Shown here: in pieces, positions 27,856 to 46,321 of the stretch
Numbering within the stretch: the stretch's first letter is position 1
Layout of the letters: each line of letters opens with the position of its first letter
Assembly: GCF_006381105.1 (NCBI RefSeq)
Contig: NZ_VDET01000002.1
Location: forward strand, 1,153,578-1,217,577
DNA length: 64,000 bases
Direction: 5' to 3'
Source of the DNA: Flavicella sediminum
GTDB taxonomy: Bacteria; Bacteroidota; Bacteroidia; Flavobacteriales; Flavobacteriaceae
Notes under the pieces: generated by a model
What the model saw: the letters and a program-made list of their open reading frames with translations, nothing else
Database searches by the model: none
What the model was told of the DNA's origin: nothing
Made by a program: the position numbers and the translations under genes

Positions 27856-27879
27856 TATAATTCATTTATCATCTTTCAC

Positions 27880-27893
27880 GTTCCACGTGGAAC
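27880..27893. other. parS site 1 (ParB-binding centromere-like site)
   Basis: The perfect palindrome GTTCCACGTGGAAC, in context CGTTCCACGTGGAACG, matches the parS consensus with its CACGTG core. It lies 9 bases after the mnmG stop codon. A second copy precedes the gene. Confidence 0.85.
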
Positions 27894-27902
27894 GCTATAA
27901 AA

Positions 27903-29780
27903 TTATCTTCCCATATACACCAACAAAACAGAAATATCACTTGGTGAAACACCACTAATTCTGCTTGCCTGAGAAATGGTAACAGGTTTAATTTTTGTTA
28001 ATTTTTGACGAGCTTCAATAGACAAAGATTTCACTTTATGGTAATCAAAAGATTCTGGAATAGAAACGTTTTCTAAGCGTGTTAACTTATCTGCATTCTT
28101 CTTTTCCTTATCAATATACCCAGCATATTTTACATGAACTTCTGTTTGTTCAACAATCTCATCATCTATTCCATTTGCTTCAATAAATTCTAAAACACCT
28201 GGAAATTTCTTTACATCTTCAAAGTCCAATTGCGGACGAGCAGCCAACTTAAACATCTTCATAGACTGATCTACAACAGCAGAATTTTTAGCCTCTAAAA
28301 TAGGATTTACATCCGTATGTTTGATACTCGTATTTCTTAAAAATGCCACAAACAAATCTGTCTTTTCTTGCTTTTCAATCACACGATCCAAACGCTCTTT
28401 TGAAGCGATTCCCAATTCATAAGCCATAGGTGTCAAACGCAAATCTGCATTATCTTGACGTAACAAAGTTCTATATTCTGCCCTAGAAGTAAACATACGA
28501 TAAGGCTCCTCTGTACCTTTTGTAATCAAATCATCAATTAAAACACCAATATAAGCCTCATGACGTTTCAATATAAAAGGCGCTTTTCCTTGCACTTTTA
28601 AAGCCGCATTTATACCAGCCATTAATCCTTGAGCACCTGCTTCTTCATAACCCGTTGTTCCGTTAATTTGACCCGCAAAAAACAAATTAGAAACCAACTT
28701 CGTTTCCAAATTATGTTTTAATTGCGTCGGTTGAAAAAAGTCATATTCGATTGCATAACCGAAACGAAGAAACTTTACATTTTCAAAACCTGCCACTTTA
28801 CGCAAAGCTTTATCTTGAACATCTTCTGGCAAAGATGTAGAAAATCCATTAACATAAATCTCGGTTGTATCCCAACCTTCAGGCTCAATAAACAATTGGT
28901 GCTTGTCTTTTGTAGCAAAACGATCTATTTTATCTTCAATAGAAGGACAATATCTTGGACCCGTACTTTGAATACGACCATTAAACATTGGTGAACGATC
29001 AAATCCTGTTCTTAACAAATCATGCACTTCTTGAGAAGTATATGCCATATAACAAGAACGTTGTTTTTCCAAAGGTTTCGTAGATGACAAATAAGAAAAT
29101 TTCTCTGGCTTTTCATCTCCTGGTTGCTCTACCATTTTAGAAAAATCTAAAGAACGTGCATCCACTCTAGGTGGTGTTCCTGTCTTCATTCTTCCCGCTT
29201 CAAAACCTACCTTTACCAAATCTTCAGTAATACCCGTAGAAGCACTTTCACCGGCTCTTCCTCCTCCAAATGTTTTTTCACCTATATGAATCAATCCATT
29301 TAAAAAAGTACCTGCCGTAATAATTACCGACTTCGCTTTTATATCAAAACCTAAAGTTGTACGTATTCCTTTGATCACATTATCTTCGATAATCAAACCA
29401 CGAACCATGTCTTGATAAAAATCTAAATTATCCGTTTGCTCTAACATCATTCTCCATTTCTCAGCAAAACGCATACGGTCACTTTGCGCTCTTGGAGACC
29501 ACATTGCAGGACCTTTAGATTTGTTCAACATTTTAAATTGAATCGCTGTTTCATCCGTCACAATTCCGCTATATCCACCAAGCGCATCTATTTCACGAAC
29601 AATTTGTCCTTTGGCAATTCCTCCCATAGCAGGATTGCAACTCATTTGCGCAATGTTCTGCAAACTCATTGTTATCAATAGAGTTTTAGCACCCATATTA
29701 GCACTTGCAGCAGCAGCTTCCGAACCTGCATGACCACCTCCAACAACTATAACATCGTATGTATCAGTAAAAAGACTCAT
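27903..29780 (-). CDS. mnmG: tRNA uridine-5-carboxymethylaminomethyl modification enzyme MnmG (GidA)
   Basis: A 625-residue FAD protein that, with MnmE, installs the cmnm5 group at U34 of several tRNAs in the cytoplasm. The N-terminal FAD motif is VIVVGGGHAGSEAAAASANM (residues about 10-30). Further signatures are CNPAMGGIAKGQIVREIDAL, GTFLNGLIHIGEKTFGGGRA, GRMKTGTPPRVDARSLDF and GTTGYEEAGAQGLMAGINAA. The C-terminal helical domain ends IKPVTISQASRISGVSPSDI. The length is standard. The gene is bracketed by two parS sites; gidA genes are classically close to the replication origin. Confidence 0.99.
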   Translation of the reverse strand: MSLFTDTYDVIVVGGGHAGSEAAAASANMGAKTLLITMSLQNIAQMSCNPAMGGIAKGQIVREIDALGGYSGIVTDETAIQFKMLNKSKGPAMWSPRAQSDRMRFAEKWRMMLEQTDNLDFYQDMVRGLIIEDNVIKGIRTTLGFDIKAKSVIITAGTFLNGLIHIGEKTFGGGRAGESASTGITEDLVKVGFEAGRMKTGTPPRVDARSLDFSKMVEQPGDEKPEKFSYLSSTKPLEKQRSCYMAYTSQEVHDLLRTGFDRSPMFNGRIQSTGPRYCPSIEDKIDRFATKDKHQLFIEPEGWDTTEIYVNGFSTSLPEDVQDKALRKVAGFENVKFLRFGYAIEYDFFQPTQLKHNLETKLVSNLFFAGQINGTTGYEEAGAQGLMAGINAALKVQGKAPFILKRHEAYIGVLIDDLITKGTEEPYRMFTSRAEYRTLLRQDNADLRLTPMAYELGIASKERLDRVIEKQEKTDLFVAFLRNTSIKHTDVNPILEAKNSAVVDQSMKMFKLAARPQLDFEDVKKFPGVLEFIEANGIDDEIVEQTEVHVKYAGYIDKEKKNADKLTRLENVSIPESFDYHKVKSLSIEARQKLTKIKPVTISQASRISGVSPSDISVLLVYMGR

Positions 29781-29790
29781 AATTTATACA

Positions 29791-29804
29791 GTTCCACGTG
29801 GAAC
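29791..29804. other. parS site 2
   Basis: GTTCCACGTGGAAC, in context AGTTCCACGTGGAACA, is identical in its 14-base core to site 1. It lies 10 bases upstream of the mnmG start codon and so inside its leader. ParB bound here could affect mnmG transcription. Confidence 0.88.
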
Positions 29805-29830
29805 AAAGTTTTTATAATATTGATATTCAA

Positions 29831-30241: not shown

Positions 30242-30255
30242 TGTAAAAATTTTTG

Positions 30256-30263
30256 CAAAGATA
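30256..30263 (-). promoter_or_regulatory. -7 promoter element of ybeY
   Basis: TATCTTTG on the minus strand matches TAnnTTTG and lies 14 bases before the start codon. Confidence 0.6.
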
Positions 30264-30412
30264 CCATTTAGTTTTGAGTTCTTGGTTTTGAGCTATAAAT
30301 ATGCAGCCTCTTATAAAATATAATAAAAATGATCTCTTTTACAATTCGGAAAGTGAGGAGTTTTAACAAACACATTTCATCATTTAAACACTTCGCGATT
30401 CAACAGAATAAG

Positions 30413-30420
30413 TATCTTTG
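30413..30420 (+). promoter_or_regulatory. -7 promoter element of gltX
   Basis: TATCTTTG matches TAnnTTTG, 19 bases before the gltX ATG. No clear -33 TTG is visible. Confidence 0.6.
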
Positions 30421-30439
30421 CACTTTAATTTTTTGAACC

Positions 30440-31966: not shown

Positions 31967-31988
31967 TCAATTTTATTTATACACATAA

Positions 31989-32019
31989 AAAAACGCCTTT
32001 ACAAAATAAAGGCGTTTTT
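31989..32019. terminator. Bidirectional terminator overlapping the end of the next gene
   Basis: A 12-bp perfect stem (AAAAACGCCTTT and its complement, 7-base loop) serves gltX on the plus strand. It also contains the last codons and stop of the minus-strand gene ending at 31999. Confidence 0.85.
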
Positions 32020-32403
32020 CTCTTTTTCTATTTTTTCAATGCTTTCTTCTTTATCGTCTTGTATTCTTTCTATGTCGATCACAAAATACAGACTGTCACC
32101 CAACCAAGGAAATGTTGCAAATCTTTCTTTATAGGTTAAGCGAACAAATTTGCCTTGGTACTCTTTCATCAAGTCAATAATTCTTTCTTGATCTTTTTCA
32201 ATTGAAAAACTAAAATGTTGCGATTCGGAAACTCCCTGACTTATTTCCCCTTCCCAAGTTTTAAATAAAATTCCTTTTTTGGTGACTTTCACCAATTCAC
32301 CAGAACGAAAACCTTCACTAAAAGTTACATAATATACGGCAGTAATATATAAAGCCACACCTACAATAATAGCGCTGATAAGAATGATTAAGAATTTTTT
32401 CAT
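31999..32403 (-). CDS. Small membrane-anchored protein, unknown function
   Basis: 134 residues from the ATG at 32403; seven more upstream codons are open but would cross the promoter. It has an N-terminal membrane anchor (LIILISAIIVGVALYITAVY, about 4-23) and a soluble part with SGELVKVTKKGILFKTWEGE, LMKEYQGKFVRLTYKER and a lysine/glutamate tail. Relatives in Bacteroidota are, as I recall, often mislabelled as 6-phosphogluconate dehydrogenase. No dehydrogenase motif is present, and I give no function. The stop codon lies within the terminator hairpin. Confidence 0.8.
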   Translation of the reverse strand: MKKFLIILISAIIVGVALYITAVYYVTFSEGFRSGELVKVTKKGILFKTWEGEISQGVSESQHFSFSIEKDQERIIDLMKEYQGKFVRLTYKERFATFPWLGDSLYFVIDIERIQDDKEESIEKIEKEKNAFIL

Positions 32404-32421
32404 GATCTGATTGTTTGCGCA

Positions 32422-32429
32422 CAAAGATA
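32422..32429 (-). promoter_or_regulatory. -7 promoter element of the small membrane protein gene
   Basis: TATCTTTG on the minus strand, 18 bases before the start at 32403. Confidence 0.55.
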
Positions 32430-32519
32430 CTTAGAAAGAATTAATATCAGCTGTACAAAATATCTTTTGACAATAAGTAGAAACAGCGTAACTTACAAAC
32501 TCATTTAAAAAAGTAATCT

Positions 32520-33440
32520 ATGTTAGTAGTCTCCAATCTTATTTATTTAGTTCCCATAGTAATTCTTGTCTTTCTTGGTTTATTCACTGTAAAACAACAA
32601 ACTACAGCCATTGTAGAACGTTTCGGAAAATTTTTAAGCATTCGTCAATCGGGATTGCAATTTAAAATTCCTGTAATTGATAAAATCTCAGGAAGAGTCA
32701 GTCTAAAAATTCAACAATTAGATGTGATTGTAGAAACCAAAACAAAAGATGATGTATTTGTCCAATTAAAAATATCTGTTCAATTTCAAATACTTAGAGA
32801 AAAAGTATACGATGCCTTTTACAAATTACAAAATCCACATGATCAGATAACCGCTTATATATTTGATACCGTACGAGCAGAAGTACCAAAAATGAAATTG
32901 GACGATGTATTTGAGAAAAAAGACGATATTGCCTTAGCAATACAAAGAGAACTAAAACAAGCCATGCTAGATTATGGTTATGACATTGTAAAAGCGCTTG
33001 TTACAGACATTGACCCTGATGCACAGGTAAAGGAAGCAATGAACAGAATTAACGCCGCAGAACGTGAGAAATTAGCTGCTCAATTTGAAGGAGATGCACA
33101 ACGAATATTAATCGTGGAACGTGCCAAAGCAGAAGCTGAAAGCAAACGTTTACAAGGAATGGGTATTGCCGATCAGCGAAGAGAAATTGCTCGTGGTTTG
33201 GAAGAATCAGTAGATGTTTTAAACAAGGCTGGAATCAATTCGCAAGAAGCCTCTGCCCTAATTGTGATTACACAACATTACGACACCTTGCAATCTATTG
33301 GATCGGATACAAACAGTAATTTAATTTTATTACCCAACAACCCAAATGCAGCCAGTTCTATGTTAAATGATATGGTGACGAGTTTGGTCGCTGCCAATAA
33401 AATAAATGAAAGTTCAAATAAAACAAAAGACAAAAATTAA
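32520..33440 (+). CDS. SPFH/band 7 domain protein (stomatin, QmcA-like)
   Basis: A 306-residue membrane-associated scaffold protein. The N-terminal membrane helix (LIYLVPIVILVFLGLFTV, residues about 6-23) is followed by the SPFH domain: QQTTAIVERFGKFLSIRQSG, LQFKIPVIDKI, and TKDDVFVQLKISVQFQI. Then comes DYGYDIVKALVTDIDPDAQV and the coiled-coil NRINAAEREKLAAQFEGDAQ ... AKAEAESKRLQGMG. The family organises membrane microdomains and often regulates proteases. No NfeD partner is adjacent. The tail is Asn/Ser/Lys-rich. It is a single gene with its own terminator. Confidence 0.95.
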   Translation: MLVVSNLIYLVPIVILVFLGLFTVKQQTTAIVERFGKFLSIRQSGLQFKIPVIDKISGRVSLKIQQLDVIVETKTKDDVFVQLKISVQFQILREKVYDAFYKLQNPHDQITAYIFDTVRAEVPKMKLDDVFEKKDDIALAIQRELKQAMLDYGYDIVKALVTDIDPDAQVKEAMNRINAAEREKLAAQFEGDAQRILIVERAKAEAESKRLQGMGIADQRREIARGLEESVDVLNKAGINSQEASALIVITQHYDTLQSIGSDTNSNLILLPNNPNAASSMLNDMVTSLVAANKINESSNKTKDKN

Positions 33441-33457
33441 TTTTCTACCCAAAACGA

Positions 33458-33487
33458 AAAACCTTCAAAATACACTTGAAGGTTTTT
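33458..33487 (+). terminator. Intrinsic terminator of the SPFH gene
   Basis: An 11-bp stem (AAAACCTTCAA / TTGAAGGTTTT) followed by a T-run, 18 bases after the stop. Confidence 0.8.
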
Positions 33488-33640
33488 TTATGCTTTAAAA
33501 ATTCTTAACAAATATCTTAGACCAGATTTCTCAAAATTAATTCTTAGAAAAAAAAACAAAACTCTAAAAGTTTCTCAAATTCATTTTTTACAACTGTTTT
33601 TCTAATTTTCACCCAAAAAGCAAGTTATTGAAATAAACTA

Positions 33641-34984
33641 TTACTTTTTAATATTTAATAACTTTAATCGATTTAAAACCACCCCTTTTAAGACGATTTC
33701 AGACGTTTTTGGAATATTTAGAGGATAACTTATATCTGAAAAAATAACAGCAACTGAAGGTCCTGTAATTGGACTTTCATTCGAATATAAGCCATCACTA
33801 GTCAACACATGGTTTACATCTTTGCTATTGCGAACAAAAGTTGGAGGATAGTACAAATATTGCAAAGCGGCTGGTACGTATTTGAAATTTTTAAAAGAAA
33901 GCGAGGCAGTCGCATCTTTTGAGATCAAACTAATATTTTTAAAAGTAGAACTGGCATCAAAAGTACCTATCGCTCTTCGTTTTGAATCTTTGGCAACAAA
34001 ACCTTCTTTTAAAAATAGAGTCCAAGAACTTCCTTCCGATTTTGCAACATCAACCAACACTCTTCCATTGACCACAGAATGAGGTTGCAACAATACGGCA
34101 GCCTTACCATTTTTACTCACCACATTTTTGATGCTAATATTATAAACTCCCAAATCTAAATGTCGACCGGTATGTGCTTCAATACGGCAAGTCATACCAC
34201 CTTCACAAATTAAATTTTTTAATAAAATATTTCTTCCTGTATTTGTCTGTGCCAAACCATAACCAATAGAAGCTCCTTTCATGCTAATATTTGCAATTGT
34301 TACATTTTCTGGAATATGTGCTGTTTCCTCATCTATTCGAACGGGGTTAAATGCTATGGCTGTACCTTTTGTAAATTCATCATAAATGGAAAAATTTTGC
34401 ACCAATACATTTTTTGTATGTCCTAAAGCAATGGCTCTTCTAAATGCTTTTCCATTTTTTTCTAAATACAATTTTGGCCTTTCGGAAGGACTTCCTAAAC
34501 CCACTAATTTTACATTCTCTACAATTGGTTGCTTTTCTGTTGCGCCTATATTGAATAAAAATCCTTTTCCATTTAAAGAATTGTCCATATGAATCACAAC
34601 ATATTTATCGAACGTGATATGGATATTAGATTTCAGGGCTATATTTTTAAAAAGATAATTTCCTGAAGGAATAAAAATATTCCCTCCTCCTGCTCGACTT
34701 AATTCATTGATGATTTTTTCTAAATTATGACTGTCCTTTTCTTCTAAACTTTTAGAGAAAGTAATATTTCTACTTTTAGGTAAATTCTTAAAATCCTTAG
34801 CTATGTAACCTGCCCCATCTTGAAAATACGGTGTGGGTTTGTACAAGGCCATATCAGAAACATCTCCTTCGGGAACAATTGTTTTTACAGAAGTAGCTAC
34901 AACTTCATTTTTACCAACTACTTTTTCTTGTGAAGTACAAGCAAAACAAATGCACACAAAATAACTAAAGAATAAATTTTTCAT
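33641..34984 (-). CDS. Exported right-handed beta-helix protein, GH82-like paralogue
   Basis: A 447-residue protein with a lipoprotein-type signal (residues 1-16, ending CFACTSQ; Cys16 is the likely lipobox cysteine). Residues about 85-420 form a right-handed beta-helix. It is related to the protein at 6264-7814: both have an early GG-x-I-x-[IF]-P/NSG-x-Y segment, GYGLAQ (versus GYGLVQ), a central RIEAHTG (versus RLESG), and QPHSVVNGRV (versus SPHTIHQGRV). These parallel the active site of GH82 iota-carrageenases as I remember it, but the second acid is replaced (His here). It follows a TonB receptor and an AraC regulator on the same strand. It could be a carrageenan- or agar-binding or degrading protein. 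Some other polysaccharide lyase or hydrolase on a beta-helix is the alternative. Confidence 0.6.
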   Translation of the reverse strand: MKNLFFSYFVCICFACTSQEKVVGKNEVVATSVKTIVPEGDVSDMALYKPTPYFQDGAGYIAKDFKNLPKSRNITFSKSLEEKDSHNLEKIINELSRAGGGNIFIPSGNYLFKNIALKSNIHITFDKYVVIHMDNSLNGKGFLFNIGATEKQPIVENVKLVGLGSPSERPKLYLEKNGKAFRRAIALGHTKNVLVQNFSIYDEFTKGTAIAFNPVRIDEETAHIPENVTIANISMKGASIGYGLAQTNTGRNILLKNLICEGGMTCRIEAHTGRHLDLGVYNISIKNVVSKNGKAAVLLQPHSVVNGRVLVDVAKSEGSSWTLFLKEGFVAKDSKRRAIGTFDASSTFKNISLISKDATASLSFKNFKYVPAALQYLYYPPTFVRNSKDVNHVLTSDGLYSNESPITGPSVAVIFSDISYPLNIPKTSEIVLKGVVLNRLKLLNIKK

Positions 34985-35120
34985 GGTTACTGATTTTTAT
35001 TTCAAACAAAAATAAGTTTGAACCCATTTACAAAAAGGTTTGTCAGTACATATCTTGTAACGAGTATGATTTTATAAACACAATAAAAACTAAACAGGTT
35101 ACATTATTCAATGTACTATA

Positions 35121-35167
35121 AAACTAAAAACCTATCAGGTCATTTAGACTTGATAGGTTTTTAGTTT
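35121..35167. terminator. 17-bp perfect inverted repeat
   Basis: AAACTAAAAACCTATCA and its exact complement are separated by 13 bases. It is the second hairpin downstream of the TonB receptor gene on the minus strand. It could be a back-up terminator or a processing site between receptor and beta-helix transcripts. Confidence 0.55.
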
Positions 35168-35238
35168 CACAAAGTTTATTTTGCTTATTCGGTCTCGACT
35201 TCCCTCAACCTGACAAACTTCTAATTCTTATAAATAAA

Positions 35239-35271
35239 AAACCTCGCAGCCTTTATAGCACTACGAGGTTT
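35239..35271 (-). terminator. Intrinsic terminator of the TonB receptor
   Basis: AAACCTCG / CGAGGTTT stem with a long loop; on the minus strand TTTTTATTT follows. It is 28 bases past the stop. Confidence 0.65.
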
Positions 35272-35298
35272 GAATTTTCAATACGGAGATTTGAATTC

Positions 35299-37938
35299 TT
35301 AGAATTCGTTCTTACCAAATTCACTATCAATAAACTTAGATTTGTTTCTTAGTTTGTTAAAAGTATAGGTTAAGTTTAATGAAATCATATCCACTTCATA
35401 CACATAATTAGTTGTTGTATAAAACTCATTAGGTCTTGAAGTGGTAATACGTTGTTCATTTGTATTCAACAGTCCCATATCGATATTTTGCCATTGCAAG
35501 GTAGCGGCCAAATTATCATCCCAAAATAATTTCTTAAAAGTTAAGTTTGGAGAATAGAAACGTGAATCTTCACCCATTGCTGTATTTCTATCAGAAATAT
35601 AGTTGAAGGCAAATTGCATAGAAGCATTTTTCCAAAATTTATACGTAGAGTTTAAGTTAAAAGAATAAATTGTTGATTTACTATCTATCAAATAGGTTCT
35701 TGATACTCCATCTCTATGGTTGAAATTTAATGCACCATCAATAGCATAGTTGTATACATTGGCACCAATAAAATTACTCCAGTTTTTAGAGCCTTTAATC
35801 GTAGCTCCAACTTCTAAACCAATGGCATTGCTTTTTCCAACATTAGAATACACACGGTTTAAAATACTGTCGTTTACAATATAGTTACCAGGGTTTTCCT
35901 TATCATCTTCATAAACTCTTGCATTTACTCTATTGATGACATTTTTTGTATGTCTAAAATAAGCCGTTGCAAACACAGAATTTCCATTGTTGTATTTTTT
36001 ATTGACACCCAATTCAACCAAATCAATAAATTCAGGTTTTAATTGATTGTCTCCTTGCTCGTATACCTCTGAATGCTCACGTTCCGCAAAACTATTCATT
36101 TTAAAAGTCGTAGTACGCACTACCCTTTTGCTATACGCCGCTTTAATATTCGTACTTTCATTCGCTTTGTATTGCAAAGATGCTGAAGGAAATAATTTGG
36201 CGTCATAACCATAATCGTAAGTAGTAGAATTTGTTGCAGTACCTAATTGCTCTTCATACTCTCTATCCATAGATTCTAAACGTACACCCGCCGCATAATC
36301 CCATTTTTTTTGATTTTTAGACAATTGTACATAAGCAGAATGAATGATTCTTTTTAGATTGATAGTACTTGAAAATTCTGGTACAGTAGTAAAATCTTGG
36401 ATTGGTTTTAAAACACCTGTAGAGTTTCTAGTATAATCAAATTCACCTTCATGATCTAAATGTCTGAATTGGTAACCTGTTTCAAAAGTACCTATATTGC
36501 TTGGTGCCCATTTATAATCTAAATTGAAACGCATTCCGTTTAACGGGTTGTCATTGGTATTGTATTCTTGTTGATATACAATTGTTCCATTATCTGTTTT
36601 ATAAGCATCCGATAAATCACTACCATCTACATTGTCATTTTCTGTAGGACCTCCTAAAAAAGTGTATTCATATAAAAATGAAGTAGACAATTTAGATGCA
36701 TTGTCGAATGTATGTGCATAATCGAAACTAGCCAAAGCAAAATCACCTTTACGAGTTCTTAAATTATGGTTGTAATATTGAAATCCATTTTCTTTATCAG
36801 CAGAATTATAAGTCGTATTACCTGGAGCTGAATTAAAACTATTAACATCATTCACAGAAAAATTATTGTAAAGAATATCAGCCAAACGATCTTTTTTTCT
36901 TTTACCACCATACACACCAAAAGAAAATTCATTTTTAGCATTTGGTGTAAAATCAGCTGTAAAACGTGCATTGTAACTTACATCATCAAAACTACGTTCT
37001 CCGTCTGAAAGTAAATACCTTCTTGTATCATCAGAGAAATTAGCATGGGTTCCGTTATCATTTTGAATAAATACTTCACCTTCTCTTCTACCCGCTTTAT
37101 CATTGCGTTGGTAACTAGCGCCTATAGAAACATTCCATAAATCGTTTCTAGTATTGTAAGTAACATCTACACCATAACGTTGCGGATATTCTTTGGTATT
37201 GTAGTCTTGTACAGGAGGAAATCCGCCACGGATATTTACCTGTGCATAATCTCCGTTTGTAGCTCCTTTTTTAGTGATGATATTTAAAATACCTGCTGTT
37301 CCTTCTGGGTCATATTTTGCAGAAGGCGCCGTAATTAATTCAACTTTTTCCAAAGCATTAGCAGGCAATTGTGCTAGTAAAGAAGCCGCATCACCTTGGG
37401 TTGGTTTTCCATTAATTAATACCGCAAAACTATTACTTCCTCTTACACTAATGGCACCTTCACCATTTACGGTAACAGATGGTAAATTTTTAACAACATC
37501 AACGGCACTACCACCTTGGCTGTTTTGAAATTTATCAGATTCGAAAACCTGACGGTCAATTTTATGTGCCACCGTAGCTTTATCACCTCTTACCACAACC
37601 TCATTTAACTGAGAACTTGAGATTTTAAGGTTGATTGCACCAAGATTTTTGTATTCACCTTTTTTAGTAATGCTAATATTTCTTATTGTTTTTGTTTCAA
37701 AACCGATAAAAGAAGCTTCCAAATAATACGTACCTGACTTTACTTTTTCTATAGAAAATTCACCATCCAAACCGGTTACCACACCCGTTACCAAACTACC
37801 ATCGGCTTGTTTGTATAAAATTACACTCGCATACTCTAAAGCATCCTGACTTGATTCATCTTTGATTGAACCTGTAATTTGAGCGGATACAAAACTGCTT
37901 GTTAAAATTACTGCAATCAGTAAAAGTTTTTTAATCAT
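35299..37938 (-). CDS. TonB-dependent receptor, outer-membrane beta-barrel family (OMP_b-brl_3 type)
   Basis: An 879-residue outer-membrane protein. The signal is MIKKLLLIAVILTSSFVSA. Residues about 20-110 are a carboxypeptidase-like regulatory domain (ITGSIKDESSQDALEYASVI, LDGEFSIEKVKSG). The plug (about 120-225) has VFESDKFQNSQGGSAVDVVK, SVRGSNSFAVLINGKPTQ and AKYDPEGTAGILNIITKKG. The barrel follows and ends MISLNLTYTF plus a charged tail of about 20 residues. It is not of the SusC type and has no SusD beside it. The AraC regulator gene lies 133 bases upstream on the same strand, and the beta-helix gene lies downstream. Confidence 0.93.
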   Translation of the reverse strand: MIKKLLLIAVILTSSFVSAQITGSIKDESSQDALEYASVILYKQADGSLVTGVVTGLDGEFSIEKVKSGTYYLEASFIGFETKTIRNISITKKGEYKNLGAINLKISSSQLNEVVVRGDKATVAHKIDRQVFESDKFQNSQGGSAVDVVKNLPSVTVNGEGAISVRGSNSFAVLINGKPTQGDAASLLAQLPANALEKVELITAPSAKYDPEGTAGILNIITKKGATNGDYAQVNIRGGFPPVQDYNTKEYPQRYGVDVTYNTRNDLWNVSIGASYQRNDKAGRREGEVFIQNDNGTHANFSDDTRRYLLSDGERSFDDVSYNARFTADFTPNAKNEFSFGVYGGKRKKDRLADILYNNFSVNDVNSFNSAPGNTTYNSADKENGFQYYNHNLRTRKGDFALASFDYAHTFDNASKLSTSFLYEYTFLGGPTENDNVDGSDLSDAYKTDNGTIVYQQEYNTNDNPLNGMRFNLDYKWAPSNIGTFETGYQFRHLDHEGEFDYTRNSTGVLKPIQDFTTVPEFSSTINLKRIIHSAYVQLSKNQKKWDYAAGVRLESMDREYEEQLGTATNSTTYDYGYDAKLFPSASLQYKANESTNIKAAYSKRVVRTTTFKMNSFAEREHSEVYEQGDNQLKPEFIDLVELGVNKKYNNGNSVFATAYFRHTKNVINRVNARVYEDDKENPGNYIVNDSILNRVYSNVGKSNAIGLEVGATIKGSKNWSNFIGANVYNYAIDGALNFNHRDGVSRTYLIDSKSTIYSFNLNSTYKFWKNASMQFAFNYISDRNTAMGEDSRFYSPNLTFKKLFWDDNLAATLQWQNIDMGLLNTNEQRITTSRPNEFYTTTNYVYEVDMISLNLTYTFNKLRNKSKFIDSEFGKNEF

Positions 37939-38071
37939 TTTTTTTAGTTTTTAGTTTTTAATCTTGTTCCTGGTCAAGGATTTTAAAATTAAGCTTGGTA
38001 AATTTAACGGTGCAAAACTATTAAATAAAACAAAAGGGCAAATGGTTTATTTGAAATATAAATGGTCTTTA

Positions 38072-38878
38072 TTACGTATTACTTCTAAATTCACTGGGTG
38101 TAGTTCCTACAATTCGTTTAAAGTACTTCCCAAAATGAGAATTGTCTTTAAAAAATAAGGTGTAGGAAATTTCACTAATCGTTAAATCGGTATAAATTAA
38201 CAATCGTTTTGCTTCCATAATTATACGATCGGTTAGTATGGAAGAAGCTGTCGTATTGTGTTCTTTTTTACAGCAGTTATTTAAGTTTTGTGGTGTGGTA
38301 TTTAAAATAGTCGCGTAATAATCTACAGTTTGTAATTGTACTTCTTGGGTATTTAATACATCCATAAATTTTGAATACAAACCTATTTTTGTTTGCGTTA
38401 CATTATTATCTGATTGAATTACTTTTGCTAACAATGCCTTTAATAAACCCTCCAAAATCATGGTATTATTTTCAGATTTATTTTCGATGATTAACAAATC
38501 AAATAAGTTTATAAGCGTCTCAGCAGATTCAAAATAACGATAAGTAATGGCAGAAATTTTAGCAATGACTTTTTTCAATTCAAGATCTAGGCTGTTATCA
38601 ACAAAGGACTTTTTTAATAAAATAACATAGCCATTGGGTTCCGAATCTAAATCCCAAAAATGCACTTGTTCTTTGCGAACAACGAAAAAAGTTCCAGGCT
38701 TTACTTCTATTTTATGATTGTCAATTGTATGAAAACCAGAGGCATTGGTAAAGAAAACCAATTCTAAATATTTATTGTGCTTATGAGCTGCCGTTTTACG
38801 AACATGTTTTTTAAAAACCTCTATTTTAATAGCCTTGGAGGTTTTTATTTTATCTTTGATCGTAAAAATTTCATTCAT
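38072..38878 (-). CDS. AraC-family transcriptional regulator
   Basis: A 268-residue regulator. The N-terminal half is a cupin-like ligand-sensing domain (HKHNKYLELVFFTNASGFHT, KPGTFFVVRKEQVHFWDLDS). The C-terminal half (about 165-268) is the double helix-turn-helix: QLQTVDYYATILNTTPQNLN and, in the second, DLTISEISYTLFFKDNSHFG with KYFKRIVGTTPSEFR. This places it among XylS/AraC-type activators of catabolic genes. It is immediately upstream of the TonB receptor and beta-helix genes and is their likely regulator. A perfect inverted repeat lies 48 bases before its start. Confidence 0.93.
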   Translation of the reverse strand: MNEIFTIKDKIKTSKAIKIEVFKKHVRKTAAHKHNKYLELVFFTNASGFHTIDNHKIEVKPGTFFVVRKEQVHFWDLDSEPNGYVILLKKSFVDNSLDLELKKVIAKISAITYRYFESAETLINLFDLLIIENKSENNTMILEGLLKALLAKVIQSDNNVTQTKIGLYSKFMDVLNTQEVQLQTVDYYATILNTTPQNLNNCCKKEHNTTASSILTDRIIMEAKRLLIYTDLTISEISYTLFFKDNSHFGKYFKRIVGTTPSEFRSNT

Positions 38879-38926
38879 GCTTTCACTTTTAAATAATTTG
38901 TAAGCTCAATTAAAAAGACTTGTTAG

Positions 38927-38948
38927 GCTATTAACTATTGTTAATAGC
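38927..38948. promoter_or_regulatory. Inverted repeat upstream of the AraC-type gene
   Basis: GCTATTAAC and GTTAATAGC, separated by 4 bases, make a perfect 9-bp dyad in the promoter region of the regulator gene. It could be an autoregulatory operator or a leader hairpin. Confidence 0.45.
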
Positions 38949-39054
38949 TTGAGACTGTAAAAGAACGAAAAAGTTTAAGGAAGCTCTAAATTTTAACATA
39001 TGAAGACTAGCTTGAATCTCTTTATCTATAGAGCAAATGATTTAAAAACAAAAA

Positions 39055-39084
39055 AAAGCCTGTAAGTAGTTACTTACAGGCTTT
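39055..39084 (-). terminator. Intrinsic terminator of tatA
   Basis: A 14-bp perfect stem AAAGCCTGTAAGTA / TACTTACAGGCTTT. On the minus strand it is followed by a T-run. It begins 20 bases past the stop. Confidence 0.8.
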
Positions 39085-39104
39085 ATATTTTAGAAAGATC
39101 CTAC

Positions 39105-39302
39105 TTATTTAGCATCTTTTTTATCGTCTATCTTATCAGCATCTTCATCTTTAGAAGCGTTTTTAAATTCTTTAATTCCGCTACCTAAACCACGCATTAA
39201 TTCTGGTATTTTTCGTCCTCCAAAAAGTAACAATACAACCACCACAATAATGATCACTTGTGGACCACCAATCATTCCTAAAAATATACTTGATAAATTC
39301 AT
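39105..39302 (-). CDS. tatA: Twin-arginine translocase subunit TatA
   Basis: A 65-residue inner-membrane protein forming the pore element of the Tat pathway for folded proteins. It has one membrane helix ([15 protein letters not shown], about residues 13-27), the hinge [14 protein letters not shown], an amphipathic helix, and an acidic/lysine tail. The motif F-G-x-x-x-[IL]-P is intact. TatB/E-type roles cannot be separated by sequence alone. The DUF1501 protein at 46471-47661 carries a Tat-like signal and could be a substrate. Confidence 0.95.
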
Positions 39303-39321
39303 TTCTTTTTTATTTAGAAAA

Positions 39322-39329
39322 CAAAGATA
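39322..39329 (-). promoter_or_regulatory. -7 promoter element of tatA
   Basis: TATCTTTG on the minus strand, 19 bases before the tatA start. Confidence 0.6.
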
Positions 39330-39379
39330 ATAACTTTGTTTAAATAATATAATTTTTGCTAGTTAATTCGAATATCTGA

Positions 39380-40078
39380 TTATATATCTAGTTTTTCACC
39401 ATTTTTAAAAATACTTCCGCCCATAACCTTGGTGGTTTTAACAGATTTTGTTTTCCCAAAATACTCTATCGTTCCGCCCAATTTTACTTTGGCATCTAAA
39501 ATATCTTCCACAAAAATTTTCGCTTCACCGCCAGTTGTAACAGAAATATCTGTTTGTTTTGTGATTAATTCCGTTCCATTATAATTACTTCCGGTAGTTA
39601 TATCTACACTTTGAGATTTTGCAGTACCTTTTAATTGAATGTTTCCTCCAGTAATGGCTTTTACTTTCAAATAATCTACCGCTAAACTTAATTTTATATA
39701 AGCACCTTCTTGAGAACTTACATCCAATTGTGTTTGTTTAAAAACTTCTTTGGAAGTAATTACAGCCCCCTGATTTGCATCCAACTCGCCAATAATACTA
39801 TTGTAGTACAAGTTGATATCAACTTTATCAGATTTAAAAAGACTTTTTACTTTTAAGGTGAATTTTAAAACTCCTTTTTTATTACTTACCACAACTTCTG
39901 TAGCTTTTTCACCTGAAATTTCTATTTTTTGAACCTCCGATTTTATCAGATTTACCGTTAAACCATTAAATACTTTTAATTCATCAAAGTTTTTAACATC
40001 ATTTATAACTACATCCTGTGCAAACATAAAATTTGTCAAAAACAGGAATGCCAAAAGACAAACTTTCTGCAATTTCAT
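39380..40078 (-). CDS. GIN-domain (DUF2807) exported protein
   Basis: 232 residues from the ATG at 40078, giving the signal MKLQKVCLLAFLFLTNFMFA. An upstream ATG at 40105 would overlap the preceding gene by 19 bases. The rest is a beta-solenoid-like head GIN domain with short alternating strands and repeated Gly turns: NGLTVNLIKSEVQKIEISGE, LDANQGAVITSKEV, VKAITGGNIQLKGTAKSQSV, VTTGGEAKIFVED. Members are periplasmic or surface proteins of unknown function, perhaps adhesive. It lies 8 bases after the neighbouring membrane protein gene, so the two are probably co-transcribed. Confidence 0.85.
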   Translation of the reverse strand: MKLQKVCLLAFLFLTNFMFAQDVVINDVKNFDELKVFNGLTVNLIKSEVQKIEISGEKATEVVVSNKKGVLKFTLKVKSLFKSDKVDINLYYNSIIGELDANQGAVITSKEVFKQTQLDVSSQEGAYIKLSLAVDYLKVKAITGGNIQLKGTAKSQSVDITTGSNYNGTELITKQTDISVTTGGEAKIFVEDILDAKVKLGGTIEYFGKTKSVKTTKVMGGSIFKNGEKLDI

Positions 40079-40086
40079 AAGCTTAT

Positions 40087-40563
40087 TTACTGTATTTTTT
40101 TCCATTTATTTTTATCAAAATTAACTTTATTATACGTTTTTATTTTTAGAATCTTATCGGTCAAATAACTTACTTCCACTGTACGTGTTTTTAAAATAGA
40201 AGAAGTCAGCATTTTTTGTTTTTGTATTTCAACTTTTACATTGGGATCCTCTTTGCTTTCAAACAACACTTTTTCAGTGTTCCAAACATTAGAACTGTCT
40301 AATATTTCCATAGGATTTAGATAAAATATAACAACAAAACCTATAATTGGAGATAGAATTCTATAAATTTTATTCAATTTAGGTTTGTAAAAATAGATAT
40401 CCCAAACAAGCAATGCAGGTGTCAAAATTAATACGCCTACATAGATGGCCGATTTTAAAACTGAATGATTTATTTCAAAAGGAGTATTTACTATAATTAA
40501 AAACAAAAATAATAGCACAAAATAAGCTCTATTAAAAATTCTTGAAACTACTCGCTTTTTCAT
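40087..40563 (-). CDS. Membrane protein of unknown function, 158 aa
   Basis: A protein I do not recognise. It has three predicted membrane helices in the first ~85 residues (AYFVLLFLFLIIVNTPF, SAIYVGVLILTPALLVWDIY, ILSPIIGFVVIFYL). A basic, beta-rich C-terminal part follows (KVEIQKQKMLTSSILKTRTV). It lies 13 bases downstream of rnr and just upstream of the GIN-domain gene on the same strand, so it probably belongs to an rnr-membrane protein-GIN operon. Confidence 0.75.
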   Translation of the reverse strand: MKKRVVSRIFNRAYFVLLFLFLIIVNTPFEINHSVLKSAIYVGVLILTPALLVWDIYFYKPKLNKIYRILSPIIGFVVIFYLNPMEILDSSNVWNTEKVLFESKEDPNVKVEIQKQKMLTSSILKTRTVEVSYLTDKILKIKTYNKVNFDKNKWKKIQ

Positions 40564-40576
40564 AATTACAATTTTT

Positions 40577-42778
40577 TTATTGCAGCAAACTAAAATCTAA
40601 ATGTTTTCTATCCAAATCAGTATTTTTAACTTTTACCGTTACTTCATCACCCAATTGGTACATATTTTTAGTAGACTGTCCCACCAAGGCATATTGCTTT
40701 TCATCAAAGATATAATAATCGTCTTTTATATCACGAGTTCTTACCATTCCTTCGCATTTATTTTCAATAATTTCTACATAAATACCCCATTCTGTAACGC
40801 CAGAAATAACACCTACAAATTCTTGATCTTGATGATCTTGCATGTATTTAATTTGCATGTATTTGATAGAATCTCTTTCTGCTTTGGTGGCTAAATATTC
40901 CATTTCAGAAGAATGTTTACATTTCTCTTCGTATTCTTCAATTTTAGGCGATGGTTTTCCATCCAAATAATTTTGCAACAAACGATGTGCCATTACATCA
41001 GGATATCGTCTAATTGGCGAAGTAAAATGAGAATAATGATCAAAAGCCAAACCGTAATGTCCAATATTATTGGTGGTATATTCTGCTTTACTCATAGAGC
41101 GAATGGTTAAAGTTTCAATCATATTTGATTCACCTTTTCCATGCACATCTGTTAATAATTTGTTCAAACTATCAGAGGTCGTTTTTCTTGATTTTAAATC
41201 AATGCTATACCCAAATTTATTAATGATTCCTTGCAAAGCCATTAACTTGTCTACATTAGGTTCATCGTGAACTCGATAAACAAACGTATTTTTCGACGGT
41301 CGACCACCTTTGATACTGACAAACTCAGAAACTTTTCTGTTGGCCAACAACATAAATTCTTCAATTAATTTATTGGCATCTTTAGATTCTTTAAAGAAAA
41401 CTCCTAAAGGATTCGCCTCTTCATCTAAATTAAATTTCACTTCTACTCTATCAAAAGTAATGGCACCGTCTTTTAAACGTTTCTTACGCATTATTTTTGC
41501 TAAAGTATCCATCTTCAACACTGCATTTACAACAGCTTCAGAAACCTCATAAGAACCTTCTCTAATAGAAATATCTTCTGGTACAGTTGCTTTGGTATTT
41601 TCTTTTCCTTCTTCAATAATTACCTGGGCTTCTTCATACGCAAAACGTTCATCAGAATAGGTAACGGTTCTACCATACCATTCGTTGACCAATTGTGCTT
41701 TTTCATTCAATTCAAAAACTGCTGAAAAAGTTAATTTTTCTTCGTGTGGACGCAAAGAACAAACACCGTTTGATAATTTTTCTGGCAACATAGGAACGAC
41801 ACGATCTACCAAATACACGGAAGTGGCTCTTTCATACGCTTCTTTTTCCATTTCAGAATCTAAAGCCAAATAATGAGAAACATCGGCAATATGAATTCCT
41901 ATTTCGTAATTTCCATTTTCTAAGACCTTGTATGACAAAGCATCATCAAAATCTTTTGCATCTTTTGGATCTATGGTAAAAGTCAAATCTTTACGCATGT
42001 CTCTACGTTTCGAAATTTCTTCTTCCGTAATGGTCGTATCTAAATCTTCTGCTTCTTTTTCTACATGCGCTGGAAACTCAATAGGCAAACCATATTCAGC
42101 TAAAATACTGTGAATCTCTGTATTATGATCTCCTGGTAATCCTAAGATTTGTGAAATTTTACCAAAAGGATTTTTTGAATTTTGTGGCCAATCTGTTAAA
42201 GTAGCAATTACTTTTTCACCATCCACAGCACCATTCAATTCATCTTTTGGAATAAAAATATCTGTGTACATTTTGTTATTATCTGGCACAACAAAACCAA
42301 AGTTTTTACTGACTTGTAAAACGCCAACAAATTCAGTTTTAGCGCGTTCTATAATTTCAACAACATCTCCTTCTTTTTTAGAACTTCTACGTTTGTCGTA
42401 TACATACACTTTTACGGTGTCTTTATCCAAACCTCTGTTTACGTTGATAGATGGAATAAATACATCTTTTTCAAAATCGTCACAGATAAAATAAGCGTTT
42501 CCGCTAGATGTTAAATCTAACGTTCCTGTATAATAATTTTTATTTTCTACCAGTATGTATTTTCCTCTTTCTACTTCTTCTAACTTCCCCTGACCTTTTA
42601 AGTCTTCTAGCTTTTTAATTACTTGCGACCTTCCAATAGCATCAGTTAGTTCAAGTTTACCAGCAATTTGTTTGTAGTTAAATATTTTATTTGGATTCTT
42701 TCCAAACACTTTTAAAATTTTACTTGTCAATTCTCTAACTACGTTACCTTTCTTTTTATAAATTTTCTTTTTTGGCAT
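40577..42778 (-). CDS. rnr: Ribonuclease R
   Basis: A 733-residue 3'-to-5' exoribonuclease of the RNase II family that degrades structured RNA. The order is: N-terminal winged-helix region with a basic start (MPKKKIYKKKGN), cold-shock domains (about 75-215), and the RNB catalytic domain from about 250 with DLTFTIDPKDAKDFDDALSY carrying the metal-binding aspartates. HIADVSHYLALDSEMEKEAY, YGLAFDHYSHFTSPIRRYPD and a C-terminal S1 domain (EFVGVISGVTEWGIYVEIIE) follow. The end DRKHLDFSLLQ is typical. The length is standard. Its upstream side is the putative origin region. Confidence 0.98.
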   Translation of the reverse strand: MPKKKIYKKKGNVVRELTSKILKVFGKNPNKIFNYKQIAGKLELTDAIGRSQVIKKLEDLKGQGKLEEVERGKYILVENKNYYTGTLDLTSSGNAYFICDDFEKDVFIPSINVNRGLDKDTVKVYVYDKRRSSKKEGDVVEIIERAKTEFVGVLQVSKNFGFVVPDNNKMYTDIFIPKDELNGAVDGEKVIATLTDWPQNSKNPFGKISQILGLPGDHNTEIHSILAEYGLPIEFPAHVEKEAEDLDTTITEEEISKRRDMRKDLTFTIDPKDAKDFDDALSYKVLENGNYEIGIHIADVSHYLALDSEMEKEAYERATSVYLVDRVVPMLPEKLSNGVCSLRPHEEKLTFSAVFELNEKAQLVNEWYGRTVTYSDERFAYEEAQVIIEEGKENTKATVPEDISIREGSYEVSEAVVNAVLKMDTLAKIMRKKRLKDGAITFDRVEVKFNLDEEANPLGVFFKESKDANKLIEEFMLLANRKVSEFVSIKGGRPSKNTFVYRVHDEPNVDKLMALQGIINKFGYSIDLKSRKTTSDSLNKLLTDVHGKGESNMIETLTIRSMSKAEYTTNNIGHYGLAFDHYSHFTSPIRRYPDVMAHRLLQNYLDGKPSPKIEEYEEKCKHSSEMEYLATKAERDSIKYMQIKYMQDHQDQEFVGVISGVTEWGIYVEIIENKCEGMVRTRDIKDDYYIFDEKQYALVGQSTKNMYQLGDEVTVKVKNTDLDRKHLDFSLLQ

Positions 42779-43861
42779 TTACCTAATTTTATTATTTCTT
42801 AAAAGTACGGATAAAGTTATTCTATATAGATTACGAAGTATTAATATTTTGTAATCTTTAACGCTTTGGATGTGAAGAAGTGCTCAACTATTATTTCTGT
42901 TGAACTTAATTATCCGTCTTTTTGTGACTGCAAAGCTACATTATTTATTTTTAGTACACTTTTTTATAAAACACAAGCTACTTATTTAAGAAAAGAATTA
43001 TGGTAAGCTTCCTCAATTCTACAATTTCAAAAGTTGACTTAGTTATAAACATATATAATATATATACTATTCTTCTTTTAAAATTTAAAAAAACAATAAT
43101 GGTATATTATAGGGTGTGAATAAGTACCATAACTTTGTAAATTATTATTAGGATTTGTTACTTATTGCTACTTAATAAACAGCTATTAACATTTTATGAG
43201 TTATTTAATTGCTTTATTTCTAGACAGAAAAGGGTACTTATTAACAAGTCGATGAAAAGTAGTGTTTACTTTAAATTCTATGTAAAATTACTTCTGTTCA
43301 GTATTAACAAGTATGTTTATTATTGTTAATAACTAGAAGTTATTTTATTGAAAATAAATTTGCGTATGTGTTACCCTTCGCTGTATTGTTTTTTTAGTTT
43401 TAATAAGCAAATTTAGTTGTTGTTTTTTTACCGCTATTTGTTAACATTTAGATAATATAGCTAATCTGTTTAAAACTAAGGAGTTTTACAAAAGTTGTTA
43501 GAAAGCCTGTTAATAGCGGGGCTTATTGTAAATATTTCCTTTTTTTTAAAAGTTACCAAATTGTTAATAGATTCAATGATAAAGGTTTAGCTAGTTGAAA
43601 TTGTTCATAAGTCTACCTAAACAGAAAAGAGAATTTTAACCAAGCGTTTTCGATCTAGATTTTTTAAAATAACAGCAGTATTTATGATAAAAGTACCGTA
43701 TAAAACCAATATAGTATTACTTAGTTATTAGAACAGCTGTTGATAAGCTTATTTTTAAAATAAAATAGGTATAAATACTCATTAGTGGGTATTGTTACGG
43801 CTGTGTATAACTTGTATTTTTGATTTTTTAAGACGAAACTAAAAGATTAAAAATAATAACT
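42779..43861. other. Putative replication origin (oriC): AT-rich non-coding region with DnaA-box-like sites
   Basis: 1083 bp with no credible gene. Six exact matches to TGTKNATAA occur on either strand: 43115 (TGTGAATAA), 43238 (complement of TGTTAATAA), 43324 (TGTTAATAA), 43602 (TGTTCATAA), 43738 (TGTTGATAA) and 43802 (TGTGTATAA). At least four one-mismatch sites lie at 43183, 43301, 43508 and 43562. A very AT-rich stretch at about 43041-43110 (ACATATATAATATATATAC) could be the unwinding element. The best DnaA consensus, TGTGGATAA, does not occur exactly. Gene strand bias changes here, and two parS sites lie 14-16 kb to the left. dnaA is not adjacent, as is common in Bacteroidota. Confidence 0.65.
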
Positions 43862-45748
43862 ATGAAAATTTTAAAATTCGCAACTTTTTTATTGTTAATA
43901 ACTGTTTTAAGCTGTTCAAAATCAAGTGATAAAATTGAGATAACACCTGTAAAAGATGGAGAAACCTTTGTTTTTAATGGTGGAGCTACTTTTAAATATG
44001 AAGTCAATTTAATTTCTACAGATACTATTCCTTTTCAAGAAGAAAGTATTGAGGCAGAATTAAACGGAGAAAAAATTCAAATTAATAAAGTTGATGATGT
44101 TACTTGGGGCTATGCTATTGCAAATGTTACTGCCAGTAGTTCGGTGGTAGATTTGACTTTTAAAATTGGCCAGGATACCTATATTATCAATCATGTGATT
44201 AATGAAATTGTTTTGGATGATACGCCAGAGGAAATAAGTAATACTTATTTTGATAAAGTTGAAGTTGCAAAATCAGAAATTACGGAAGCTAGTACTGTGG
44301 CAGAAGTTTCTAAATTATCAGACATTTTTGATGATATATGGAGCAAAGCAACAGAGCAAGAAAAAAAGGAGTTTGCAGAATTTTATACGGTAAATAAAGA
44401 AATGTTTGCCAATTTAATAAATCCTTCTTCCGCAGAAAATAAATCGAAAGAATCGGTAGTTTACCTTCAAAACAAAACAAGTATTAGTGAAAGTAATAAG
44501 CTGGCATTGCTATTTGCAGGTTCTGTATTTACCTTGGGTACCTCTATACAAGCCGGAGTTAGAAGTGTAGCGAATCCATTGGCGGCAGCAGCCTTTGTAG
44601 TAGCGGCAGTTATTTCATTTAAAGTTGCTGTAAGAGCTTGGAATGCTTATTCTACTTTGCAATTGGAATTGATAGAAGCACATTTTGAAAATTCTCAAAA
44701 TAAATCGAAAACAGCTTCGAAAACCAATGCCGATAACATTCAAAATGAAGGGCAAAACAAATCTTATGGTATACATCTAACCTTGAGTAATATTTCAGAA
44801 AATTCGGAAATTCCGATCATGGCCAAAGTTTGGTCTAATTATAAAAGTTTGCAAGGAATTACGGAAAAAATAAATTCTGTCATTGCTTTTGTAAATGATT
44901 ACAATCCTTTTAGCGATATTCCGAGTCTTGATTATCCTAGTGCACCTCCAGTTTTAAAAGATACAAGACCAATAACGGAAGAAGAATATAACGCGTTAAC
45001 GATTTCTAATAACAGTTCTAAATTAAAGCAAACAGCAAGTTATTCAGGAGGTGGAATTTCTTTAAAATTCGATAAAAAAAAAGGAGAAGATTATTCGGAT
45101 CTTCAAAAAGTGAGTGTGGGTGTTAGTGTTGCTTTGAACTCAGAATTCGGAAATGTGAATGCTTCCATGTCCGTAGATGTATTATTGAAAGATTGTAACG
45201 ATGATTTTGGAGGTGATGCTTTTATGTCGGAATGTGATATTTGTGTGGAAGGAAAAACAGGAAAAACTGAAGAAGAAGCCTGTAAAGAAAATCCACTTTT
45301 TGGTAGTTGGCAAGCAATTAGTTACAACGGAAAATCTATGGGAACATTGACTGAGGAACTTTATAATGAAGAATGTGATGTATACCTGAATACACATGCT
45401 TTGAATTCGTCTTTAATGACTATTTCGGAAGAAGATTTTTCAGTAACAGAAAATCGAACTGTTTATAATGTAACATACAGTTCTGATGGTGAAACAAATG
45501 AAGTTGATTGTGAATCTATTGTGAAAACTCCTGAAACATCAAACTATTCTGTAAATTTAAAACTTAAGGATTTTACCCAAGAAGGCAGCTCTAATGTTTA
45601 TAAAAATGTAACCACTTATAGTGATGGTCAAGTGAGTACTTTAGAAATTGTGTTACTAAGTGATACAAGTCTTAGATTTACTAACTATCATAAAGATACA
45701 GATGGTATTACGCGTAATGCTTATAGTTTATTGTATAGCAAAAAATAA
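43862..45748 (+). CDS. Large lipoprotein of unknown function with a lipocalin-like C-terminus
   Basis: A 628-residue protein with a lipoprotein signal (MKILKFATFLLLITVLSC, Cys18) that I do not recognise as a whole. Residues about 25-120 are beta-rich and Ig-like. Residues about 125-200 are helical and acidic. Residues about 205-285 contain Ala/Val-rich hydrophobic stretches (NPLAAAAFVVAAVISFKVAV) that could insert in a membrane. A cysteine cluster (DCNDDFGGDAFMSECDIC) sits near residue 450. The last ~140 residues, starting NPLFGSWQAISYNGKSMG, look like the lipocalin-like domain common in Bacteroidota lipoproteins. It is the first gene right of the putative origin. A T-x-T repeat-like or calcium-binding role is not supported. 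Confidence 0.85.
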   Translation: MKILKFATFLLLITVLSCSKSSDKIEITPVKDGETFVFNGGATFKYEVNLISTDTIPFQEESIEAELNGEKIQINKVDDVTWGYAIANVTASSSVVDLTFKIGQDTYIINHVINEIVLDDTPEEISNTYFDKVEVAKSEITEASTVAEVSKLSDIFDDIWSKATEQEKKEFAEFYTVNKEMFANLINPSSAENKSKESVVYLQNKTSISESNKLALLFAGSVFTLGTSIQAGVRSVANPLAAAAFVVAAVISFKVAVRAWNAYSTLQLELIEAHFENSQNKSKTASKTNADNIQNEGQNKSYGIHLTLSNISENSEIPIMAKVWSNYKSLQGITEKINSVIAFVNDYNPFSDIPSLDYPSAPPVLKDTRPITEEEYNALTISNNSSKLKQTASYSGGGISLKFDKKKGEDYSDLQKVSVGVSVALNSEFGNVNASMSVDVLLKDCNDDFGGDAFMSECDICVEGKTGKTEEEACKENPLFGSWQAISYNGKSMGTLTEELYNEECDVYLNTHALNSSLMTISEEDFSVTENRTVYNVTYSSDGETNEVDCESIVKTPETSNYSVNLKLKDFTQEGSSNVYKNVTTYSDGQVSTLEIVLLSDTSLRFTNYHKDTDGITRNAYSLLYSKK

Positions 45749-45889: not shown

Positions 45890-46321
45890 ATGACAATAGC
45901 AATAGGAAATGATCATGCGGGTCCAGATTATAAATCGGCAATCGTAGAAGTATTAGAAAGTAAAGGAATTACGGTAACTAATTACGGTACAGATAGTTTT
46001 GATAGTGTTGATTATCCTGATTTTGCACACAAAGTTGCTGGGGCTGTGGATACAAAACAAGTAGATTTAGGAATCTTAATTTGTGGTAGTGCAAATGGAG
46101 TAGCTATGACTGCAAATAAATATGCAAATGTACGTGCTGGTTTGTGTTGGACTAAAGAAATTGTAGAGTTGATCAAACAACACAACAACGCAAATGTTTT
46201 GTGTATTCCTGCGCGTTATACATCTATACCACAAGCAGTAGCTATGGTTGAAACTTTTTTAAACACTGAATTTGAAGGAGGTCGCCACCAAAATAGAGTT
46301 GATAAAATTAGCTGTAGTTAA
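45890..46321 (+). CDS. rpiB: Ribose-5-phosphate isomerase B
   Basis: A 143-residue cytoplasmic isomerase of the RpiB/LacAB family, interconverting ribose-5-phosphate and ribulose-5-phosphate in the pentose phosphate pathway. IAIGNDHAGPDYK (residues 3-15) is the phosphate/ring-opening site. The active cysteine is in LGILICGSANGVAMTANKY (near residue 66). HNNANVLCIPARY (about 99-111) carries the conserved His and Arg. The final GGRHQNRVDKI is typical. It has its own promoter and terminator. Confidence 0.96.
   Translation: MTIAIGNDHAGPDYKSAIVEVLESKGITVTNYGTDSFDSVDYPDFAHKVAGAVDTKQVDLGILICGSANGVAMTANKYANVRAGLCWTKEIVELIKQHNNANVLCIPARYTSIPQAVAMVETFLNTEFEGGRHQNRVDKISCS

Follow-up and report, generated by a model that had tools for sequence, protein, structure and literature searches.

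Does the AT-rich gap beside rnr hold the replication origin of this Flavobacteriaceae chromosome, and which part of it would be the origin proper? We analyzed a 64-kb stretch of DNA (hereafter the window), which corresponds to positions 1153578-1217577 of a 1.85-Mb contig. The initial annotation had placed oriC in the gap at 42779-43861, based on six exact TGTKNATAA sites. All six were found to be exact and located as claimed, but the tally was incomplete, a seventh exact site on the minus strand (43043-43051) having been overlooked. An eighth lies at 43893, within the lipoprotein-type gene. Local shuffles preserving the dinucleotides of the gap (1083 bp, 24% GC) gave an expectation of 0.34 sites, and none of 2000 shuffles reached the seven sites observed. 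The window as a whole contained 24 exact sites versus 12.5 expected, a number reached in none of 100 shuffles. The TATATA-rich block described in the gap is also present, at about 43050-43068.

The proposed scan for TGTKNATAA density was run on 464 kb, composed of the window and 20 sampled 20-kb stretches of the same contig, and it singled out the rnr gap. Among the 97 intergenic stretches of at least 150 bp, the runner-up contained two sites, and none of the others had more. The densest 1-kb interval was 43001-44000, with eight sites. The features of the region are collected in the table.

Table. Coordinates of the features discussed in the text, numbered along the window.
Feature	Position	Strand	Evidence or remark
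parS-type palindrome	27879..27894	.	GTTCCACGTGGAAC inside
mnmG (gidA), between the two parS-type sites	27903..29780	-	ORF; TIGR00136
parS-type palindrome	29790..29805	.	GTTCCACGTGGAAC inside
rnr, ribonuclease R, conserved origin neighbor	40577..42778	-	TIGR02063, 721 bits, over cut-off
Conserved oriC core	43041..43134	-	Model R1 match, 47.2 bits, E 9.2e-12
Second core DnaA box, TGTTTATAA, facing the first	43043..43051	-	Exact match
Probable DNA unwinding element, 63 bp between the core boxes	43052..43114	.	Low computed stability
Core DnaA box, TGTGAATAA (TTATTCACA in rnr orientation)	43115..43123	+	Exact match
DnaA box, TGTTAATAA, offset -195 from right core box	43238..43246	-	Exact
DnaA box, TGTTAATAA, offset -281	43324..43332	+	Exact
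DnaA box, TGTTAACAA, offset -395	43438..43446	-	One mismatch
DnaA box, CTATTAACA in rnr orientation	43508..43516	+	One mismatch; identical in congener
Three more DnaA boxes (43602, 43738, 43802)	43602..43810	+	Exact
628-aa gene, lipoprotein-type start MKILKFATFLLLITVLSCSKSS	43862..45748	+	
rpiB, usual neighbor opposite rnr	45890..46321	+	NF004051 and TIGR01120, above cut-off

We fetched the loci containing RNase R from 80 relatives, the titles of which correspond to Flavobacteriaceae genera, unclassified Flavobacteriales or Bacteroidota bins. In 68 of them rpiB lies beyond the gap and is oriented away from rnr; the 12 others, whose fetched DNA did not show rpiB in this arrangement, were left unused. 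The rpiB-rnr gap contained at least three exact boxes in 53 of these 68 loci and at most one in 6 of them. One locus, L042, with a gap of 305 bp, was set aside ahead of the alignment, and three more (L043, L045, and L080) did not enter the model, as the 650 bp taken lacked the core or cut it. A single block of highest conservation stood out in the alignment of the gaps, and this block was then aligned from 64 relatives. The window sequence can be aligned with the relatives over about 43015-43516, and the core alignment, from which the window was excluded, contains 14 invariant columns. The core is composed, in order, of a DnaA box, a CTATAATAA-CATCATT-type element, T/A tracts, the TATATA block, and a second, inward-facing DnaA box. 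In the consensus of the 64 relatives, AGTTATnnTAnCTATTAACAnnCTATAATAAnCATCATT at the start is followed by T and A tracts, then by an AT stretch, with TGTTGATAAC at the end. The two core boxes are spaced by 60 to 71 bp (median, 63) in all 64 relatives. The comparison narrows the probable oriC element to about 95 bp, at 43041-43134.

The boxes differ in their conservation. At the offset equivalent to that of the 43115 box, we found 58 matches with at most one mismatch, 14 of them exact, in the 64 relatives, and six of the nine columns of the 43043 box are invariant. Outside the core, the 43238 box corresponds to 38 matches with at most one mismatch at offset -192 ± 4 and is the same in the congener, and the 43438 box corresponds to 27 such matches at offset -393 ± 4 and is identical in the congener. 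The 43324 box falls near, yet outside, two offset classes seen in the relatives (-276 and -265), and its counterpart in the congener is an exact box. For the boxes at 43738 and 43802, the surrounding sequence has no counterpart in the congener alignment. As that alignment suggests that the new DNA extends from about 43.6 to 45.8 kb, these two boxes are probably recent.

The origin had been placed between rnr and the lipoprotein gene. The rnr side of this placement stands, but the lipoprotein gene appears to be lineage specific and the usual neighbor on that side is rpiB. The 628-aa gene had no Pfam match and was unmatched in five congeners, and a search of 60 genomes returned its own copy and one short, weak match. 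As far as searched, it is thus a lineage-specific insertion known in the source species only. In congener G002, the rpiB-rnr gap measures 952 bp and contains the same core without any intervening gene. Open frames of 301 to 544 aa, on either strand, are present between the core and rnr in 23 of the 64 relatives (e.g., L003:3961-4879, L004:3610-4912, and L076:3126-4758). In L043 and L080, as in the window, a frame lies between the boxes and rpiB. Thus, open frames appear and vanish on either flank while the core persists. No Rfam family was detected in the window at gathering scores, and no tRNA or tmRNA was found in it.

We built a sequence-only model, R1, from the 64 relatives without the window. 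Searching the genome of the window with R1 yielded a single strong match, that of the core, the next non-overlapping place scoring 14.7 bits. The core also matched the model on the reverse strand; the score was 19.7 bits here and reached 36.1 bits in G060, a relative. R1 matched 116 of 119 family genomes at E ≤ 0.01, a count that includes the source genome and may include some of the 64 relatives from which the model was built. The three without match were G051, G098, and G103. In a sample of 146 genomes from the order, which may also include contributors to R1, 45 matched at E ≤ 0.001, namely, 31 from the same family and, weakly, 14 others. The remaining 101 gave no match, and none of the 20 listed among them belongs to the same family. 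Weaker matches outside Flavobacteriaceae were found in family f6 of the order (G149, G160, G165, G169, G173, G177, G187, G194, G228, and G254), mostly extending no further than about position 78 to 86 of the model, which suggests a related yet diverged origin core.

The position of the core relative to rnr and dnaA was determined in single-contig relatives. There were 22 of these, and the core was placed in 21, the match in G017 being weak (E 0.005) and its place not listed. In all 21, the core is on the rnr strand, 151 to 5072 bp away from where the rnr match starts, and dnaA is located at 0.20 to 0.48 of the chromosome from the core. In the source genome, the one PF00308 match for dnaA is on contig C20, separate from that of the gap. 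These data bear out the assertion that oriC is far from dnaA. The numbering of seven of the 22 genomes starts at or inside dnaA (G011, G052, G062, G089, G100, G106, and G115), which is 0.23 to 0.46 chromosome lengths from the probable origin. The numbering of G019 starts about 0.8 kb from its own core, indicating that the origin may already have been recorded there by someone.

By computed duplex stability, the weakest segments of 30, 60, and 100 bp in the window are 43040-43070, 43051-43111, and 43051-43151, respectively. Five NTN triplets follow each core box of the window on its inner side, with spacers of 14 and 12 bp. In 65 related sequences, the longest NTN run averaged 3.9 triplets on the left (3.0 in mononucleotide shuffles) and 4.9 on the right (3.6 in such shuffles). 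The best spacer on the left side was most commonly 4 bp (31 of 65 sequences); it was 13 bp in 17 sequences, and GAT, the preferred trio, was not prominent. According to PMC8287927, the basal unwinding system consists of a DnaA box, a spacer, most commonly of 13 bp, and DnaA-trios. The window resembles that system in that each core box leads inward to NTN triplets, but it differs from it in having two copies that face each other and in the weak enrichment of the triplets over shuffles. Because this enrichment is modest, the sequences are related, and the left spacer is mostly 4 bp, opening of the duplex by DnaA extending inward is an inference. It is conceivable, though on balance doubtful, that Flavobacteriaceae share a mirror-like origin, with facing DnaA boxes, some 63 bp of weak DNA between them, and trio-like tracts running inward, so that DnaA filaments could open the duplex from both ends and place one helicase on each strand.

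We determined GC skew in 20 stretches of 20 kb and in the window split at 43300, all from the 1.85-Mb contig, one of 77. All 13 pieces to the left of the gap had negative skew (-0.05 to -0.19), and all 9 to the right had positive skew (+0.02 to +0.15), with pooled values of -0.11 and +0.08. Third-position skew agreed on both arms for genes of either orientation. Read on the plus strand for single open reading frames longer than 400 bp, it was below zero for 25 of the 31 genes to the left and above zero for 11 of the 14 to the right; the other three on the right had values of -0.01 to -0.03. The sign order of the switch rules out a terminus instead of an origin. Thus, the GC-skew check of the initial annotation revealed an origin-type switch across the gap on the sampled contig, but the cumulative minimum inside the window is near 52 to 53 kb rather than at 43 kb, and skew alone therefore fails to single out the rnr gap. 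A run of minus-strand genes is located at 46.5 to 52.5 kb. Genes on the minus strand prevail left of the gap as noted earlier (25.3 versus 12.4 kb), whereas the claimed prevalence of plus-strand genes on the right does not hold in the window, with 8.7 kb on each strand. As the in-window minimum is displaced and the gene-wise skew splits at the gap, we took the region from the skew and the exact place from the box cluster.

Among the relatives, the skew comparison covers 19 genomes with stretches from either side of the core; G077 and G019 were sampled on the left only, and G017 was left out. In stretches 20 to 40 kb away, a negative left and a positive right side were found in 12 of the 19. 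Stretches further out were added for nine of the 19, picked for a weak or mixed first result. With these included, the right mean exceeded the left mean in 17 of 19 genomes for raw skew and in 18 of 19 for third-position skew, with some small margins. Raw skew failed in G067 and G099 and third-position skew in G044, while G094 and G106 were near ties. G099 had appeared terminus-like in the first count, but 19259 of the 20000 positions of its right stretch are N, making it uninformative there; it was kept among the 19.

The two parS sites announced in the initial annotation exist, but they are about 13.2 to 15.2 kb from the core and not 14 to 16 kb away. They contain the palindrome GTTCCACGTGGAAC, which we take to be the core of the parS-type site. 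An exact GTTCCACGTGGAAC occurs only twice in the 4.58-Mb assembly, at 27880 and 29791 of the window, on either side of mnmG (TIGR00136 match G000:C12:1181489-1183336, 849.5 bits). When two mismatches were allowed, the reversed control was as frequent (seven versus four hits per strand), so that only the exact hits carry weight. We also tried the parS consensus TGTTTCACGTGAAACA and rejected it, as its occurrences were scattered, with 35 per strand versus 29 for the control at up to three mismatches, the best having one mismatch. The variant GTTCCACGTGGAAC fits Flavobacteriaceae as a candidate parS pattern. It was found exactly in 18 of 23 genomes, own included, and its reversed control in none of the 23. 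Of its 33 sites, 32 are no more than 140 bp away from the mnmG match; the exception, in G017, is about 4.6 kb from rnr.

The rnr gap is very probably the chromosomal replication origin (oriC) of this Flavobacteriaceae bacterium. The skew switch, the unique parS-type sites, the lowest duplex stability in the window, and the unique conserved core next to rnr all support the original inference. DnaA, encoded far off, would bind the box array between rnr and rpiB, spread from the inward-facing boxes at 43115 and 43043 onto the 63-bp AT-rich stretch, and melt it. Two replicative helicases would then be loaded at the melted stretch, one per direction, after which ParB, loaded at the pair of parS sites next to mnmG, would segregate the new origins. 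The helicase-loading and ParB steps are drawn from general knowledge of bacterial replication.

Other readings of the gap were considered. That an AT-rich gap became rich in TGTKNATAA words by chance would suit its 24% GC content and the AT-rich motif, but this was already refuted by the comparison with relatives and has practically no probability left, given the failure of 2000 local shuffles to reproduce the cluster, the 14 invariant columns in 64 relatives, and the E value of 9.2e-12. Loci of the datA or DARS type also carry clustered boxes, and the gap might be such a DnaA-titrating or -reactivating locus, or else a DnaA-regulated rnr promoter, without being an origin. The divergent genes flanking the gap, like its clustered boxes, are compatible with this. 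Nevertheless, the gap coincides with an origin-type skew switch near parS and contains both the weakest duplex of the window and the only strong core match of the genome. Moreover, the neighboring frames vary, with the lipoprotein gene here and frames in 23 of 64 relatives, while the core is constant. We therefore regard a non-origin role as highly improbable.

A somewhat less remote alternative, although still very unlikely, is that replication starts at mnmG, where Ori-Finder placed the origin of two related species, the rnr gap being an accessory DnaA-binding region. The parS-type sites do sit at mnmG, and mnmG was within 55 kb of the core in all 20 single-contig relatives with an mnmG match. 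However, parS is usually near, yet not at, oriC. In addition, all 1-kb intervals with more than two boxes in the 464 kb scanned overlap the rnr gap. Skew was negative in 12 of 13 overlapping 2-kb intervals from 29001 to 43000, and third-position skew was negative in 7 of 10 genes between mnmG and the gap. Finally, the distance between mnmG and the core varies from 5.6 to 54.8 kb in these 20 relatives, whereas rnr is at most 5.1 kb from the core.

We thus retain the rnr gap as the probable oriC. From general knowledge, it resembles the oriC types of Escherichia coli, Bacillus subtilis, and Helicobacter pylori in its clustered boxes, its weak AT-rich block, and the skew switch. As in bacterial origins generally, parS is nearby, and here there is one strong core per genome. 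Unlike the general types, the origin of the window is away from dnaA, between rnr and rpiB, and its core boxes point toward one another from the two sides of the weak block.

In PMC11278836 (Mariniflexile litorale) and PMC12843772 (Algorimicrobium), Ori-Finder 2022 assigned oriC to mnmG or its neighborhood, in agreement with GC skew; oriC is given there at or next to mnmG. The text of PMC11278836 equates mnmG with oriC and leuB with ter, and the labels are reversed in the legend of its Figure 3. Ori-Finder 2022 scores lineage-specific indicator genes, according to PMC10225481. Our assignment shares with those in PMC11278836 and PMC12843772 the family, the chromosomal neighborhood, and the exclusion of dnaA. 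It differs from them in that the box cluster is next to rnr, 13 kb from mnmG (5.6 to 54.8 kb in relatives, the genomes of those papers being outside the comparison). The placements at mnmG probably miss the origin by several to tens of kilobases. The literature searched contained no description of an rpiB-rnr origin; DoriC may list such origins.

The probable origin of a large, ecologically important family is thus pinned to a 95-bp core next to rnr. Growth-rate estimates from read depth, skew plots, the construction of ori plasmids, and origin annotation in Flavobacteriaceae depend on the correct origin, and the dnaA start of seven of the 22 single-contig genomes is not the origin. The layout with facing boxes provides a testable model for bidirectional helicase loading.
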